Shown piece by piece: positions 216-7,413 of a DNA stretch of 8,326 nt. The stretch lies in contig JAETSS010000052.1 of assembly GCA_021769545.1 (NCBI GenBank), positions 1-8,326 on the forward strand, read 5' to 3'. Numbering within the stretch: the first letter of the stretch is position 1; every line of letters begins with the position of its first letter. The stretch is from Eubacterium sp. (GTDB taxonomy: Bacteria > Bacillota_A > Clostridia > Peptostreptococcales > Anaerovoracaceae). The notes beneath the pieces are model-generated. The model saw only the letters and a program-made list of their open reading frames with translations, was not told the DNA's origin and did not search any database. The position numbers were made by a program, and so were the translations under genes.

Positions 216-326
216 TTATAACTGACCGTGTTGTACTACTTCATCGATAAGATAAGCACAGTCTTTGAAAGTTTTAACAATAGATTCAACCTTCTCAACG
301 ATGACTTTCTTTGTAGCATTACTCAT
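216..326 (-). CDS. 36-residue small protein of unknown function
   Basis: ATG at 324-326 (minus) opens 36 codons ending in TAA at 216-218. A ribosome binding site (AGAGGGA) precedes the ATG by a few bases. The protein begins MSNATKKVIVEKVESIVK and ends DEVVQHGQL. Its hydrophobic residues V8/I9, V13, I16/V17, F20, A24, I27 and V31 recur every three to four positions, as in one amphipathic helix, with Lys, Glu and Asp on the other face. It has one cysteine (C23) and no signal peptide or long membrane segment. A consensus promoter (376-404) and a strong terminator (142-168) bracket it as a monocistronic unit of about 230 nt. I do not recognise the family and propose no function. A regulatory RNA with an incidental ORF is the alternative, but the well-placed binding site favours translation. 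Confidence 0.75.
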   Translation of the reverse strand: MSNATKKVIVEKVESIVKTFKDCAYLIDEVVQHGQL

Positions 327-1515: not shown

Positions 1516-2388
1516 ATGCACCACAATATCAAAACCATAACAGCCGCAATAGACCACATCGAGAGCCATTTACACGAAAAGCTGGATCTGGAGACCGTTG
1601 CAAAAGCTGTGCATTACTCAAAATATCATCTGCACCGCATGTTTACCGATACGGTAGGTCTGACCATCCACGATTATGTACAGCGCCGCAAGCTGACGGA
1701 AGCCGCAAAGCTGCTTGTTTTCTCCGGCAGACCGATCATCGAGATCGCTATGATAGCAGGATATGAAAGCCGTCAGGCCTTTTCAGATGCTTTCAAGGCC
1801 ATGTACAAGAAATCACCGAACCGATACAGAGATGAGGAAGAATTCTATCCGCTTCAACTCCGATATGCATTGAATGAAGACCCTGCAGTTTTAGATACGA
1901 ACGACTGGCGTGAAAAAATCGTCTTTGCGACAAACGAGGATATTCCCCAATGGATGAGGCTGGTCCGCCTGGTCATCGACGGCTTTCCACATCTCGATGA
2001 AGAGCGATATGCAGGGCAGCTGCGACAGTGCATAGAAAACAGCCGGGCTCTGATCTTAAAGGATGATGATATTGCCATCGGCATCATGGCTTTTGATGAA
2101 AGATCGGGAAGCATCGACTTTCTGGGAGTTCACCCTCAGTACAGGAATCGCGGGATCGCGAAGGCCTTTTGTGAAAAAGCGCTTTATGAGCTTTCAGGTT
2201 CTGGACTGATAAGCATTACGACATTCAGAAAAGGTGACAGGGCAGACACCGGATATCGTGAAGCCTTCAAACGCCTCGGCTTTGCAGAGGGAGAGCTGCT
2301 TATGGAATTCGGATATCCGACACAGCGGTTCACACTGCAAAAGGCGAAACCGGAAGAACCGCACCCGGATGGTGAGAAACATGGATGA
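1516..2388 (+). CDS. AraC-type HTH / GNAT acetyltransferase fusion regulator
   Basis: A 290-residue two-domain protein. Residues 1-106 form a MarA/SoxS-like AraC domain: first helix-turn-helix about 23-48 (LDLETVAKAVHYSKYHLHRMF), second about 72-105 (PIIEIAMIAGYESRQAFSDAF), then the characteristic KSPNRYR. Residues from about 115 form a GNAT domain with acetyl-CoA motif A at 184-200 (GVHPQYRNRGIAKAF, an R-x-x-G-x-A loop). The C-terminal stretch TGYREAFKRLGF resembles the last strand and helix of GNAT domains. The enzymatic part may sense or modify a ligand; the acceptor is unknown. A strong AGGAGG (1502-1507) precedes ATG 1516. Its stop overlaps the MATE start by 8 nt, indicating translational coupling and suggesting that it controls, or acts with, that efflux pump. 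No convincing promoter is seen in the 77-nt gap upstream. Confidence 0.9.
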   Translation: MHHNIKTITAAIDHIESHLHEKLDLETVAKAVHYSKYHLHRMFTDTVGLTIHDYVQRRKLTEAAKLLVFSGRPIIEIAMIAGYESRQAFSDAFKAMYKKSPNRYRDEEEFYPLQLRYALNEDPAVLDTNDWREKIVFATNEDIPQWMRLVRLVIDGFPHLDEERYAGQLRQCIENSRALILKDDDIAIGIMAFDERSGSIDFLGVHPQYRNRGIAKAFCEKALYELSGSGLISITTFRKGDRADTGYREAFKRLGFAEGELLMEFGYPTQRFTLQKAKPEEPHPDGEKHG

Positions 2389-3742
2389 TAAGCGAAAGGA
2401 CATGCGAAGGGAAGCAGATCCTCTGGCACAGAGCTTTGATATAAAGTCACTTCTCAGGTTTGCATTTCCGACGATCTTAACGATGATATCCATGGGATTA
2501 TATACGGTCGTCGACACGGTATTCGTAGCACGATTCGCAGGAACCAACGCACTGTCGGCCCTTAATATCGTATGTCCCGTCATCAATCTCATCGTGGGCT
2601 TTGGGACTATGCTCGCAACAGGAGGAAACGCCATCATTGCACGAAAAATGGGAGCCGGGGACCGTATCCGGGCATCGCGTGATTTTACTTTGATCATCTG
2701 TGCTGGAGCGTTGTCGGGAATATCGATCGCTGTCTTTGCATCGGTCTTCATAGACGTGATCATCAGAGGGCTTGGAGCAGGCGATATCCTGTTTCCGTAC
2801 TGCAGGGAATACCTTTCCATCCTGCTGCTGTTCACCCCGGCAAGCATACTGCAGGTGCTTTTCCAGAATCTGATGGTAACGGCAGGGCGTCCCGGGACAG
2901 GGATGGTGCTCAGCATAAGTGCAGGTCTAGTAAATATCCTGCTGGATTAAGTCTTTATGGCTTTGATGCATATGGGGATAAAAGGAGCGGCTGTGGGAAC
3001 AGGCATAGGTTATCTGATACCGGCTGCTGCGGGACTGCTGTTTTTTTCTGCAAAAAAGCGCACTTTGCATTTCAGAAGGCCGGTCATGGACATTTCCATA
3101 CTGACAGAAAGTTGCACCAACGGGTTTTCGGAAATGGTGAGTCAGGCGGCATCTGCCGTCACAACGGTCCTGTTCAACGCTGTAATGATGCGGCTTCTGG
3201 GGGAGAACGGAGTTGCGGCCATAACCATCATCATCTATACGCAGTTTTTACTGACGGCCCTTTACATAGGATTTTCCATGGGCGTCGCTCCCGTTATCAG
3301 CTATAACTACGGGAGACGGGACCGGGAACAGCTCAGGAACGTGTTTCATATATGCGTGAGGTTCATTGTTCTGGTTTCGGTAATGATATGCAGCGCGGCG
3401 CTTCTTTTCGGTCCGCAGCTTGTGAGCGTGTTTTCGGAGAAGGGGACTGCTGTTTATGAGATCGCGCGGGAAGGTTTTTTGATATTTCCGTTCAGCTTTC
3501 TGTTTTGCGGGGTGGATATCTTTACGTCTGCTGCATTTACGGCGCTATCCAATGGAAAGCTGTCAGCGCTGATATCCTTTTTGCGGACCTTTGGTCTGAT
3601 CACGGTTCTGCTGCTGGTTCTTCCTGAGATTTTTGGCGTGACAGGTGTATGGCTTGCAGTGCCCGTGGCGGAGCTGGTGACGATGGTGGTGGCACTGATG
3701 CTGATTTACAGGAACAATGTGAAAAACCCTGTTTCATTATAA
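2381..3742 (+). pseudogene. MATE-family efflux transporter interrupted by in-frame TAA
   Basis: ATG 2381 opens a frame encoding MATE-type multidrug/Na+ antiporter sequence: TM1 about residues 23-45 (FPTILTMISMGLYTVVDTVFVARFAG), then VCPVINLIVGFGTMLATGGNA and NLMVTAGRPGTGM. After LVNILLD at residue 189 comes TAA (2948-2950, codon 190), inside predicted TM5. The very same frame then resumes as VFMALMHMGIKGAAVGTGIGY and runs without another stop to TAA 3740-3742, ending in IYRNNVKNP. Counting the TAA as a residue, the total is 453 codons, the normal MATE length with 12 helices. One base change (for example TAT or TAC to TAA) explains it, so the event is recent or a sequence error. The possible restarts (ATG 2957, 2966, 2972) have no clear ribosome binding site. 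The first 189 residues alone hold only about four and a half helices and are unlikely to transport. The start overlaps the AraC-GNAT stop. Confidence 0.88.
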
Positions 3743-3871: not shown

Positions 3872-4582
3872 ATGAAAGGCATAAGATATTTAGCAGAATA
3901 TTTTTCAAAGGGAGAGATCACGTTATGGTCCGTATCCACAGCGTTTATCGTGGTTTCATACTGCATATTCGGAGGCGGAAGCTGTCTGACTCTCATCGCG
4001 TCGGTAATAGGAACGACGTCGCTGATATTCAATGCCAAGGGCAATCCCTTCGGACAGCTTCTGATGGTGATTTTCAGCATACTGTACGGGATAATATCCT
4101 TCACATTCTCATATTACGGCGAGATGATAACGTATCTTGGAATGACGGCCCCGATGGCGCTCTTTTCGCTGATATCGTGGCTGCGAAATCCATATAACGG
4201 CAACAGGTCCGAGGTGACAGTCAACCGTATCGAAAGAAAAGAGATCCTGTTGATGTCTGTCCTTACGGTCATCGTCACCGTCGTTTTTTATTTCATCCTC
4301 AAGGCCTTTGACACTGCCAATCTGATACCCAGCACGCTGTCCGTTACCACCAGCTTTGCCGCCGTGTATCTGACATTCAGGAGAAGTGCATTTTTCGCAT
4401 TATGGTATGCGGCTAACGATGTGGTGCTGATAATCCTGTGGATACTGGCCTCCATGAGCGATATTTCGTATCTGTCGGTAGTCATCTGTTTTATTGCATT
4501 TCTGGCCAATGATATATATGGCTTCGCCAACTGGCGGCGGATATCCATACGGCAGAAGATTGTCAAAAAAATATTACTGTGA
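3872..4582 (+). CDS. PnuC-family vitamin / nicotinamide riboside-type transporter
   Basis: A 236-residue membrane protein with about seven hydrophobic segments. It matches the PnuC family, whose members are facilitators for nicotinamide riboside, thiamine or riboflavin. Supporting stretches are GNPFGQLLMVIFSILYG (57-73), YYGEMITYLGMTAPMALFS (81-99), and the C-terminal RRSAFFALWYAANDVVLIILW (170-190) and LANDIYGFANWRR (211-223). Nicotinamide riboside PnuC proteins carry a W-x-x-W motif in the substrate site; here the equivalent appears to be F175-x-x-W178, so the ligand may differ. Start ATG 3872 is chosen for AAAGAGG 6 nt upstream; a GTG-initiated frame from 3839 would start inside the terminator stem. 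Expression is probably set by the attenuator leader. The flavoprotein gene 35 nt downstream is likely co-transcribed. Confidence 0.82.
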   Translation: MKGIRYLAEYFSKGEITLWSVSTAFIVVSYCIFGGGSCLTLIASVIGTTSLIFNAKGNPFGQLLMVIFSILYGIISFTFSYYGEMITYLGMTAPMALFSLISWLRNPYNGNRSEVTVNRIERKEILLMSVLTVIVTVVFYFILKAFDTANLIPSTLSVTTSFAAVYLTFRRSAFFALWYAANDVVLIILWILASMSDISYLSVVICFIAFLANDIYGFANWRRISIRQKIVKKILL

Positions 4583-4617
4583 TAAAATTACGTGAAATAT
4601 ATGAGGAGGTAATGATA

Positions 4618-5154
4618 ATGAAAATAACGATGGTTTTGGGAAGCCCACGCAAGGACGGCGTTTCGACACGTATGGCAATGAGCTTTGCAGATGGTGCAAA
4701 GGCAGCGGGACATGATGTAAAGATATACAATGTCAATGAAATGGAGCTGATGGGCTGTCAGGCATGCGGCTGCTGCCGTAAATACGACACGGACTGCGTG
4801 ATAGAGGATGATATGGAACAGTATTTCAGGGATCTTCGCGAGAGCGGCGCACTTGTTATAACGTCGCCTAACTACTATTCCCAGATAGCAGGACCGATGA
4901 TAACCTTCATGAACCGTCACTACTGCCTTTTGGATAAGGAAAAGAATCCGCGGCTCGAAGACTGCAAGAAGCTGTTTGCATTCTTCGCTCAGGGAGCTCC
5001 GGAAGGGTATGAAAAGTATTTACCGAATTACGAATGGTATATAGGGACGTTTACATCTAAGAATATGGAGCTTGTGAAGCAGATAATTGCAGGCGGAAAC
5101 AGTGATGTGGATGCTATGGTGAAGGAAGCATATGAGGCGGGGAAGGCGCTGTGA
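4618..5154 (+). CDS. Flavodoxin-fold NAD(P)H-dependent FMN oxidoreductase, ISF-like
   Basis: A 178-residue cytosolic flavoprotein. The N-terminal strand and FMN-phosphate loop are MKITMVLGSPRKDGVSTRM (G8-S9-P10-R11). SPNYYSQIAGPMITFMNRH (83-101) matches the SPvYfxxxxxxxKxfxDR block that holds the flavin ring and contacts the partner subunit. C47-x2-C50-x2-C53-x6-C60 fits the C-x2-C-x2-C-x4-7-C motif of archaeal iron-sulfur flavoproteins (4Fe-4S). In many bacterial relatives only part of this motif is kept, so cluster binding is possible but not certain. The ATG at 4618 lies 8 nt after GGAGG (4605-4609); the ATG at 4612 is too close and the upstream GTG frame overlaps the pnuC-like stop. Its electron acceptor is unknown. 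Confidence 0.85.
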   Translation: MKITMVLGSPRKDGVSTRMAMSFADGAKAAGHDVKIYNVNEMELMGCQACGCCRKYDTDCVIEDDMEQYFRDLRESGALVITSPNYYSQIAGPMITFMNRHYCLLDKEKNPRLEDCKKLFAFFAQGAPEGYEKYLPNYEWYIGTFTSKNMELVKQIIAGGNSDVDAMVKEAYEAGKAL

Positions 5155-5172
5155 TCGACTTCTATTTAATGG

Positions 5173-5432
5173 ATTCCAAAGAAATGATGTAATTGGACTG
5201 TTCTTTTTGGAATCATACCCCCGTTATTGACTTTTACACAGGTACATTCCAAAAACTGCAGGTAATATCCATCGATTTTTTGGAAAAATCGCAGTGAACA
5301 GATGTTATCAGACCGATCATTCCAAAGAACAGTGTTGTTTGAGCCGGTTCCTTTGGAATATACAGCCTTAGGCTAGTCCATAAGCGCCGAAATTCCAAAA
5401 GATTGCGCATTTCCCGAAGGAAATTTTGGAAT
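5173..5432. repeat. Four-unit, exactly 73-nt-periodic array of inverted 8-mers
   Basis: ATTCCAAA occurs at 5173, 5246, 5319 and 5392. Its reverse complement TTTGGAAT occurs at 5206, 5279 (as TTTGGAAA), 5352 and 5425. Each unit is therefore 8 + 25 + 8 = 41 nt, units are separated by exactly 32 nt, and the period is 73 nt with no slippage. The 25-nt and 32-nt gaps share no evident sequence between units. The ninth stem position shows compensating pairs (G-U, A-U, G-C, A-U), and each 41-nt unit can fold as a hairpin; unit 4 has an inner ATTTCC-CGAA-GGAAAT stem. The array nearly fills the gap between two convergent gene ends, and I see the 8-mer nowhere else in the window. The function is unknown. 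Options include a structured RNA, a phased protein-binding site array, or a spacer-type array. It is not a standard CRISPR, because the repeats are only 8 nt and alternate in orientation. Confidence 0.9.
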
Positions 5433-5479
5433 CACCTGAGCCTGAAACAGCGGTTCAATTTATCCTGCTGTGCGCAAGC

Positions 5480-6226
5480 CTACCGGAGCACGATACAATC
5501 GTACCGGATGGCCTTGCCTTTCAGCGCATAGCTTGGCTTCACACCTGCCAGATACGGTCCCTTGAGGGGTCTTTTTATCACTATTCGCTGCGGGGCGGCT
5601 GAGAGGGCAGCGTTCAGAAGGGTCTGTTCATCGGAGCAGGGTTGTTCCAGCTGCTGGAGCATCTGGAATTTCTTTTTTACGAGGCCGCTCTTCTGTCTTA
5701 TGGGAAACATGGGGTCCAGAAGAACGATGTCGGGGGATGGTGCCAGCCGGGGGAGCATAGCTATGCTGTCTTCCGGGTGCAGCTCCATTCGGCTGATGAT
5801 GGGTGCAAGCTGGGGATCGAGTGCGCCTCTGCGAAGGGCGTCGCAGAGAAGGGCGGCGATGACGGGATTCCGTTCGTATAATCTGACGTTATAGCCTACC
5901 GCCGCCAGCAGAAGGGAGTCTTCTCCCAGTCCCGCAGTGGCGTCGACTGCCATGGGCGCGCCTTGTATGTTCTTTAATTTTGCCGCTTTTACGAGAAGCT
6001 CTCCATTTAAGTTGTTGGGGATGAGCCTTGATTTTGATTTTGTGAAATCGCCTCGCAGGATATGTCCGTTTTCTACCAGGAAAAGGCCGTCTTTATCTAT
6101 TTGCAGGTAAAGTCCTTCCCGGGCTGACTCGGGCAGCCTGTCGGTGGGCTCGGTTCTCAGCATTTTTGATATGGTATCGACGACGTCTCTATCGGCGTCG
6201 TTTTTTGTATATAATATAATGTCCAT
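5480..6226 (-). CDS. rsmJ: RsmJ-like class I SAM-dependent methyltransferase
   Basis: A 248-residue protein matching the RsmJ/YhiQ (DUF548) family; E. coli RsmJ methylates N2 of G1516 in 16S rRNA. SAM-binding motif I is VDATAGLGEDSLLLAAVG (94-111), followed by an acidic loop at YERNPVIAALLCDAL (117-131). The catalytic-type DPMFP (171-175) is followed by KSGLVKKKFQMLQQLE, all typical of the family, and IVIKRPLKGPYLAG is near the C-terminus. Length matches the family. GAGGT precedes the ATG on the minus strand by about 5 nt. It is monocistronic and convergent with the flavoprotein gene. RsmJ is best studied in Gammaproteobacteria, so the exact target base here is inferred by family only. Confidence 0.85.
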   Translation of the reverse strand: MDIILYTKNDADRDVVDTISKMLRTEPTDRLPESAREGLYLQIDKDGLFLVENGHILRGDFTKSKSRLIPNNLNGELLVKAAKLKNIQGAPMAVDATAGLGEDSLLLAAVGYNVRLYERNPVIAALLCDALRRGALDPQLAPIISRMELHPEDSIAMLPRLAPSPDIVLLDPMFPIRQKSGLVKKKFQMLQQLEQPCSDEQTLLNAALSAAPQRIVIKRPLKGPYLAGVKPSYALKGKAIRYDCIVLR

Positions 6227-6319
6227 TTTGACCTCGTAAATTTTTTCCTGTAATTTCGCACATAATAAAATCTGTACTCATAAGAATGTCACTTCTCATA
6301 TACCGAAGTTACCGGTTAG

Positions 6320-6349
6320 ATTCTATCATATATGTATTTTATAAATCAA
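6320..6349 (-). promoter_or_regulatory. Promoter of the rsmJ-like gene
   Basis: On the minus strand TTGATT (6344-6349) is followed after 18 nt by TAGAAT (6320-6325), preceded by TG one base upstream (an extended -10). The start near 6313 would leave a roughly 87-nt 5' UTR before the ATG at 6226. No strong terminator-like hairpin is seen in that leader. Confidence 0.5.
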
Positions 6350-6402
6350 TATTCAAAATACTTTTTACAATTCCACCTGTCTTCATGCTAATTTCCTGTC
6401 AT

Positions 6403-6457
6403 TTTACATACATTTAACCTGAGGAAGATTTTGGATTTAACATTGGATATCTATAAT
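6403..6457 (+). promoter_or_regulatory. pst operon promoter with PhoP-box-like repeats
   Basis: A perfect TATAAT (6452-6457) has a poor -35 at 17-nt spacing (TTTTGG, 6429-6434), as expected of an activator-dependent promoter. Just upstream are TTTACA (6403-6408) and TTAACC (6414-6419), 11 nt apart, and TTTAAC (6436-6441), three 11-nt steps after the first; the intervening step at 6425 is not a match. Bacillus PhoP binds TTAACA-like repeats with 11-nt periodicity, so phosphate-starvation control by a PhoP/PhoB-type regulator is likely. Another TTTACA lies at 6364. The predicted start is near 6464 and the 5' UTR about 60 nt. Confidence 0.6.
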
Positions 6458-6525
6458 ATGCCTTGTACATAGGAAAACTAAAGGTAATTCATTAAATCTT
6501 AAGTAAAACGAAGGAGATGTAAAAG

Positions 6526-7413
6526 ATGAAAAAAAGCAGATTATCAAAGATACTGACATTGGGTCTTGCGGCAGCCATGATGCTGTCACTGGCAAGCTGC
6601 GGCGGCGATGACAAGGACGGCGGCGATGCAACGGAGGGAAAGGATATCACGGTCATTTCCCGCGAGGAAGGCTCCGGCACAAGAGATGCATTCACGGAGC
6701 TGACCGGCGTTATGTCAGATGACATAGACAACACCGTTGCCACGGCGGAGATCTCCAACAGCACATCGGTAGTGCTCCAGTCGGTAAAAGGCAACGATGC
6801 GGCGATCGGATATGTATCACTGGGCTCCATGAGCGACAGCGTCAAGGCTGTCAAGGTGGACGGGACAGAGGCTTCCGTAGATAACATAAAGAGCGGAGAC
6901 TATAAGCTGCAGAGACCTTTCAACATCGTTACAAAGGGAGAGATCGATGAGCTTCCGCAGGATTTCATCGACTTCATCATGAGCGCCGACGGCCAGGCGA
7001 TCATTGAAGAAGAAGGGTATATCGCGGCAAACGAGGAAGCCGAAGCCTATGAATCAAGCGGTCTTAAGGGAACCATAACTTTAGCAGGCTCAACATCGGT
7101 ATCACCTGTAATGGAGGTGCTGGCCGACAAGTATAAGGAAATCAACACCGGCGTCACCATCGAGATCCAGCAGACCGGTTCCGGCGCAGGGATCCAGAGC
7201 ACCATAGAAGGCGTATGTGATATCGGTATGGCATCAAGGGCTCTCGAAGATGATGAAGAAGGCGAGGGTCTTGAAAGCAGGGAGATCGCTCTTGACGGTA
7301 TCGCAGTGATCGTAAACAAATCAAACGAAGTAAACGACCTGTCTACGGAGCAGATCATGAAGATATTTACAGGCGAGATCACAAACTGGGCTGATGTTGA
7401 TGGTGATAAATAA
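6526..7413 (+). CDS. pstS: Phosphate-binding lipoprotein PstS, halves in permuted order
   Basis: A 295-residue secreted lipoprotein: a basic N-terminus and hydrophobic signal end in lipobox L22-A23-S24-C25, then a Gly/Asp-rich linker. It would capture phosphate outside the membrane for the PstCAB transporter. Residues about 40-180 carry DITVISREEGSGTRDAF and AIGYVSLGSM, which form the second half of a conventional PstS. GSTSVSPVMEVL (188-199), CDIGMASR, DGIAVIVNK and FTGEITNWADV (281-291), normally the first half, come last. The conserved join (NW-x-x-V then ITVxxREEGSGTR) is therefore split between the C- and N-termini: a circular permutation. All expected blocks are present, so it should bind phosphate. 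AAGGAG lies 9 nt before the ATG. pstC follows after 57 nt. Confidence 0.9.
   Translation: MKKSRLSKILTLGLAAAMMLSLASCGGDDKDGGDATEGKDITVISREEGSGTRDAFTELTGVMSDDIDNTVATAEISNSTSVVLQSVKGNDAAIGYVSLGSMSDSVKAVKVDGTEASVDNIKSGDYKLQRPFNIVTKGEIDELPQDFIDFIMSADGQAIIEEEGYIAANEEAEAYESSGLKGTITLAGSTSVSPVMEVLADKYKEINTGVTIEIQQTGSGAGIQSTIEGVCDIGMASRALEDDEEGEGLESREIALDGIAVIVNKSNEVNDLSTEQIMKIFTGEITNWADVDGDK

Follow-up and report, generated by a model that had tools for sequence, protein, structure and literature searches.

The 8,326-nt stretch of DNA analyzed here, referred to as the window, contains an array of eight inverted 8-nt arms that repeats with a period of exactly 73 nt. Four copies of ATTCCAAA alternate with four of TTTGGAAT, one of which is changed to TTTGGAAA. 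The array is real and clearly non-random, and it fills 260 of the 325 nt that separate the stops of two convergent genes (intergenic region 5155–5479). We tentatively read it as a DNA platform for a putative protein, made up of inverted half-sites in helical phase, with a BIME-like layout. We assign this reading a probability of roughly 40%, and our overall confidence in it is moderate to low. It is preferred because the arm sequence is constant and shows no covariation, and because the arms come close to a single helix face with a pitch of 10.4–10.5 bp per turn. A structured RNA from the minus strand ranks second, an order that results from weighing arm constancy, covariation, and helical phasing against the evidence from folding; the two readings are compatible with each other.

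The gap within each arm pair is 25 nt long (four of four), and the gap between pairs is 32 nt long (three of three). A further 32-nt stretch located 3′ of the last arm is the fourth of its kind, unclosed by another arm. When up to three mismatches are allowed, the window contains exactly four matches to the unit with the 25-nt gap (0.07 expected) and exactly three to the unit with the 32-nt gap (0.09 expected). These counts were reached in none of 200 shuffles for either unit, which rules out a chance origin of the array. Outside the array, TTCCAAA or TTTGGAA occurs a single time in the window, at position 114. Direct reading and the shuffle counts thus bear out the original prediction that the 8-mers alternate at exact gaps of 25 and 32 nt with a 73-nt period. 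The positions of the arms and of the other features discussed below are compiled in Table 1.

Table 1. Coordinates of the array, its arms, the predicted RNA domains, and the two convergent genes
Feature	Position	Strand	Description
Whole array	5173–5432	.	Four units of ATTCCAAA-N25-TTTGGAAT, N32 between units, period 73
Arm 1L	5173–5180	+	ATTCCAAA
Arm 1R	5206–5213	-	TTTGGAAT on + strand
Arm 2L	5246–5253	+	ATTCCAAA
Arm 2R	5279–5286	-	TTTGGAAA on + strand; sole variant arm
Arm 3L	5319–5326	+	ATTCCAAA
Arm 3R	5352–5359	-	TTTGGAAT on + strand
Arm 4L	5392–5399	+	ATTCCAAA
Arm 4R	5425–5432	-	TTTGGAAT on + strand
Predicted RNA domain I	5295–5457	-	5457–5439 with 5314–5295, 5436–5425 with 5326–5315, inner hairpin 5402–5349; mean pair probabilities 0.94–0.97
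Predicted RNA domain II	5156–5291	-	5291–5285 with 5162–5156, 5285–5270 with 5189–5174, inner hairpin 5255–5204; mean pair probabilities 0.82–0.97
FMN-reductase-like gene (NADPH-dependent FMN reductase/flavodoxin-like fold)	4618–5154	+	Left convergent gene; PF03358, E 8.1e-16
RsmJ-like SAM-dependent methyltransferase gene	5480–6226	-	Right convergent gene; PF04445, E 8.6e-54

When all eight arms are turned to one orientation, 63 of the 64 arm bases are constant. The conserved arm extends slightly beyond 8 nt. On the side of the 25-nt gap, a purine comes next in all eight arms, and the base after it is again a purine in seven of them; the half-site motif is about ATTCCAAARR, roughly 10 bp. Most other columns past the motif carry little information. 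Exceptions are three inner gap columns in which only two letters occur across the eight arms (0.9–1.1 bits). One of these columns, counted from both sides, lies at the center of the 25-nt gap and holds a T in all four units.

Over all pairs, the gaps themselves agree at 102 of 342 positions, where shuffled gaps give 87.5 ± 8.1 (p = 0.046); the count takes in the unclosed 32-nt stretch that follows the last arm. Of this total, 50 of 150 positions come from the 25-nt gaps and 52 of 192 from the 32-nt stretches. In the 25-nt gaps, at least three bases are equal in 9 of 25 columns (null 5.4, p 0.07), and the similarity of the gap cores, from which the three bases beside each arm were removed, has a p of 0.06. 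This weak signal is missing from the 32-nt gaps, where at least three bases are equal in 4 of 32 columns (null 6.8). The gap sequences, originally described as completely different, are near-unrelated, but in the strict sense the difference is not complete. Alignments of unit-sized chunks for larger inverted or direct similarity lie partly above shuffles and add little, because the chunks include the arms.

If the units were drifted tandem copies, a rough model with assumed indel/substitution ratios of 0.02, 0.05, and 0.1 would predict about 5, 12, or 25 indels, respectively; none is seen. The lack of indels despite near-random gap identity indicates that the spacing is under selection or that the array was built to length. 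Over the eight sites, the gap lengths are fixed and the gap sequence is nearly free, which suggests that distance is being read.

The gene to the right of the array encodes a methyltransferase that matches the RsmJ model with an E of 5.2e-41, although its score of 140.6 bits compares with a curated cut-off of 422. Its two closest relatives among 120 listed share 98% and 88% identity, and the listed relatives include Ruminococcus sp. 5_1_39BFAA, a Butyricicoccus MAG, Candidatus Eisenbergiella, and Oribacterium, which suggests a Lachnospiraceae-like Clostridium as the source. One weak partial match of the protein to the PADLOC model mad2 (E 4.6e-05, 20 bits) is taken for general methyltransferase similarity. 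Transposase, cas, Nop, nuclease, and recombinase domains are absent from the 10 ORFs of the window scanned with Pfam, and none of nine proteins scanned with PADLOC matches a cas model. A consensus scan of positions 4500–6600 found neither terminator-like nor promoter-like sites in 5155–5479, and intrinsic terminators within the array were likewise rejected by consensus scan. No tRNA or tmRNA was found. A protein-coding repeat was rejected on two grounds: a period of 73 nt is no whole number of codons, and an ORF of 58 amino acids that covers part of the array (5234–5410, minus strand) matches no NCBIfam or PADLOC model.

Several other genes of the window show features of their own. The PstS-like phosphate-binding protein encoded at 6526–7413 (plus strand) appears to be circularly permuted, its halves matching the usual PstS models in swapped order; the structure of PstS 2 (PDB code 4h1x) aligns with its residues 40–290 in one stretch, and the permuted form is therefore already known. 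A gene for a MATE-family transporter (2234–3742, plus strand) is split by an in-frame stop into two ORFs in the same frame (2234–2950 and 2957–3742), each of which matches PF01554; it is either a decayed gene or the result of a sequencing error. The protein encoded at 1516–2388 (plus strand) is a fusion of an AraC-type helix-turn-helix with a GNAT acetyltransferase domain. A small ORF of 36 amino acids (216–326, minus strand) is possibly a small peptide gene, with a terminator-like hairpin and T run, recognized by eye, downstream on its strand at ∼142–168.

The exact three-arm pattern, searched on both strands of the genome_contigs collection (84,980 species), returned a single match. The match is an AT-rich intergenic stretch of Flavobacterium hibisci (L001:4281–4430) with several ATTCCAAA and TTTGGAAT words, some of them overlapping, and it looks like chance or a separate, unrelated Flavobacterium repeat. 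A search of this one genome with the methyltransferase family found no member (0/1). The viral_contigs collection contains no exact three-arm pattern. The single 25-gap unit occurs there in 44 stretches, none of which carries a further in-phase arm within 160 nt when one mismatch is allowed. The core pattern with loosened gaps occurs in 12 viral stretches (four of them one homologous locus), and none continues as an array; a single stretch, L056, carries an additional core word, with one mismatch, at twice its period, and this word is missing from the three homologues of L056. Exact arms with gaps of 15–45 occur in seven viral stretches, the same seven being found with the mirrored pattern, and none has a fourth exact arm in phase.

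A scan for alternating inverted 7-mer arrays in the window and the collected loci (625,296 bases) found the array at 5173–5432 and no other. Used as queries, the two neighboring proteins found no relatives in the viral contigs. The whole window has no near match among plasmids. The comparison with phages and plasmids that had been proposed for the gaps was run with the 325-nt intergenic region. Even when E values of up to 10 are admitted, this region has no distant match among plasmids, and its matches to six phage records (E 1–4) are at chance level (20 nt exact at E 4, 36 nt at 83% at E 1). A literature search on such repeats and on both 8-mers, with subscription papers mostly outside its scope, gave no description of the array among the matches listed. 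As the collection searches were exact-match and thus blind to arrays with other arm sequences, the lack of array relatives means that the array in its exact form is either confined to its own lineage or built from other arm sequences elsewhere.

At 10.5 bp per turn, the eight arm starts fall within −51 to +51° of one face of the helix (span 102°), and 3.7% of 20,000 random spacing pairs phase equally well. The spread depends on the pitch, being 83° at 10.4 bp per turn and 163° at 10.6. The earlier proposal of a phased protein-binding platform retains no more than moderate support, with constant arms that share one face at 10.4–10.5 bp per turn, but with phasing that is weakly significant and lost at 10.6. 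We infer that the eight ∼10-bp half-sites, which alternate in orientation at steps of 33 and 40 bp, would be presented near one face of double-stranded DNA. A putative dimeric or oligomeric DNA-binding protein would bind adjacent inverted half-sites, and the bound protein may bridge or wrap the DNA between them. With such bridging or wrapping, the length of a gap would matter, and its sequence hardly at all. The position between convergent genes, where no terminator-like site was found, suggests an architectural or barrier role rather than promoter control; the array might separate the two transcription units or mark a chromosomal site.

The constancy of the arms, which pairing alone does not need, fits recognition by a protein, and there is no compensating change among them. 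The purine preference stops about two bases further in, and the only variant arm, TTTGGAAA, breaks its pair uncompensated, which speaks for the DNA platform and against an RNA stem. Exact spacing next to near-random gap identity points in the same direction. However, a protein that binds the motif was not found, a general architectural site would be expected in further copies, none of which is known, and the three restricted inner columns show that the gaps are not wholly free. A DNA-only role also does not account for the folding of the minus strand, on which region 5155–5479 reaches −101.5 kcal/mol, where dinucleotide shuffles give −75.2 ± 4.9 (z −5.4, none of 100 shuffles; plus strand, z −2.0, 3 of 100). 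When the 8-nt arms are kept and the rest is shuffled, the real energy is reached by 0 of 200 shuffles on the minus strand and 73 of 200 on the plus strand. With 10-nt arms kept, it is reached by 4 of 350 and 185 of 350, respectively, and the energy difference between the strands, 17.1 kcal/mol, by none of 350. These arm-preserving shuffles were single-base and kept base counts but not dinucleotides, and among 12 other segments of the window, three show raw strand differences that exceed 17.1 kcal/mol (19.6, 21.1, and 40.3 kcal/mol). A structured RNA, which could belong to the RsmJ-like mRNA as its 3′ end or be a transcript of its own, is possible but rather unlikely. In it, two long hairpin domains in tandem, with outer and inner stems, would be built around the arms (Table 1) and would protect or terminate the transcript. 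The three minus-strand 48-nt hairpins around the 32-nt gaps stand at 12, 31, and 57 of 500 shuffles (combined p 0.008, uncorrected for four tests; the other three combined tests gave p 0.16, 0.39, and 0.54), and one hairpin is predicted to have a UUCG loop on the minus strand. In contrast, the 41-nt hairpins around the 25-nt gaps fold no better than their gap-shuffled versions on either strand, and neither the 25-gap nor the 32-gap units, which comprise only four and three sequences, show a covariation signal. Of the hairpin series in the original prediction, the individual 41-nt hairpins thus turn out to be ordinary, whereas the whole minus strand and the three 48-nt hairpins jointly do fold better. 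Since every L arm is able to pair with every R arm, one specific fold is hard to secure, and an RNA would leave the exact gap lengths unexplained. No Rfam family is matched at the gathering threshold; two permissive matches (E 0.29 and 4.2) lie far below the gathering scores.

Two further explanations concern the origin of the array. It would be a decayed or minimal repeat of the REP/BIME/REPIN or MITE type if a transposase encoded elsewhere had amplified alternating inverted elements in tandem between the convergent genes. BIMEs have the same layout, with regular spacing and alternating orientation, and the weak residual similarity of the gaps, including that of the 25-nt gap cores alone, is consistent with such an amplification. 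We nevertheless consider it unlikely, as the arms are not self-palindromic, a GTAG or CGTC tag is absent from both strands of 5151–5450, no transposase is encoded in the 10 ORFs scanned, the exact three-arm run matched only once in genome_contigs, and the gap lengths are exact and not merely similar. Exact lengths, near-unrelated gap sequences, and zero indels, of which the assumed ratios predict several if tandem copies had decayed, are also what would be left by growth through fixed-size insertions (25 and 32 nt) between 8-nt repeats. The array would then store guides in the manner of CRISPR or TIGR arrays, and its effector would be encoded elsewhere. This reading, which corresponds to the original suggestion of an array that acquires sized inserts, is very unlikely: the array has four units only, its repeats are mutually inverted, its spacers are far longer than the 9 nt of TIGR arrays, and the results for cas, Nop, transposase, and nuclease domains and for plasmid and phage matches given above all speak against it. 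Less probable again is a new type of array in which length-measuring machinery would set unrelated 25- and 32-nt inserts between alternating 8-nt repeats, to serve as a store of guides or tags for an enzyme encoded elsewhere.

If the DNA platform is the correct reading, the array points to an unrecognized DNA-organizing or barrier protein in Clostridia. If the array instead consists of length-measured inserts, it would represent a new class of memory or guide array. The significance is limited to one locus in one organism, with no array relatives found in the collections searched and two live mechanisms.

CRISPR arrays consist of direct repeats of ∼20–50 nt and variable spacers of one length class. 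The present array resembles them in its constant repeats and in variable spacers of constant length, whereas its repeats are 8 nt long and alternate in orientation, its spacers have two alternating lengths and no convincing match, and a cas family is found neither in the 10 ORFs (Pfam) nor in the nine proteins (PADLOC) scanned in the window. Iterons, operators, and centromere-like platforms are usually contiguous or direct repeats beside a replication, partition, or regulator gene. The array resembles them in having several short, constant sites, which come near helical phase at 10.4–10.5 bp per turn, and largely free sequence in the intervals, but no replication, partition, or regulator gene borders it.

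TIGR arrays, in the excerpted text of their description, have two alternating repeats of 8–12 nt with box C/D motifs, spacers of 9 nt (some up to 12), and an adjoining gene for the Nop-domain protein Tas (PMC12045711). Measured against that excerpt, the array likewise has two alternating short repeats and spacers of set length. It differs in that its gaps are 25 and 32 nt long, one repeat is an inverted copy of the other, and the 10 ORFs scanned in the window include no Nop-domain gene.

The nearest known system in layout is the BIMEs. The source excerpts describe BIMEs as regularly spaced REPs in alternating orientation (PMC2817692) and report that REPs can sit between convergent genes and that some REP dimers have spacers alike in length and unlike in sequence (PMC3733652). 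As far as these excerpts go, the array is similar in being composed of short extragenic repeats that alternate in orientation at regular spacing. The array departs from BIMEs in the exactness of its gap lengths and in its unit, which is a half-site of 8–10 nt, whereas BIME and REP units are imperfect palindromes of 20–40 bp with a GTAG or CGTC tag. BIMEs and REPs are further marked by a high copy number per genome and a RAYT transposase. It thus shares with BIMEs the alternating, regular arrangement of extragenic units and is set apart from them by unit and tag.
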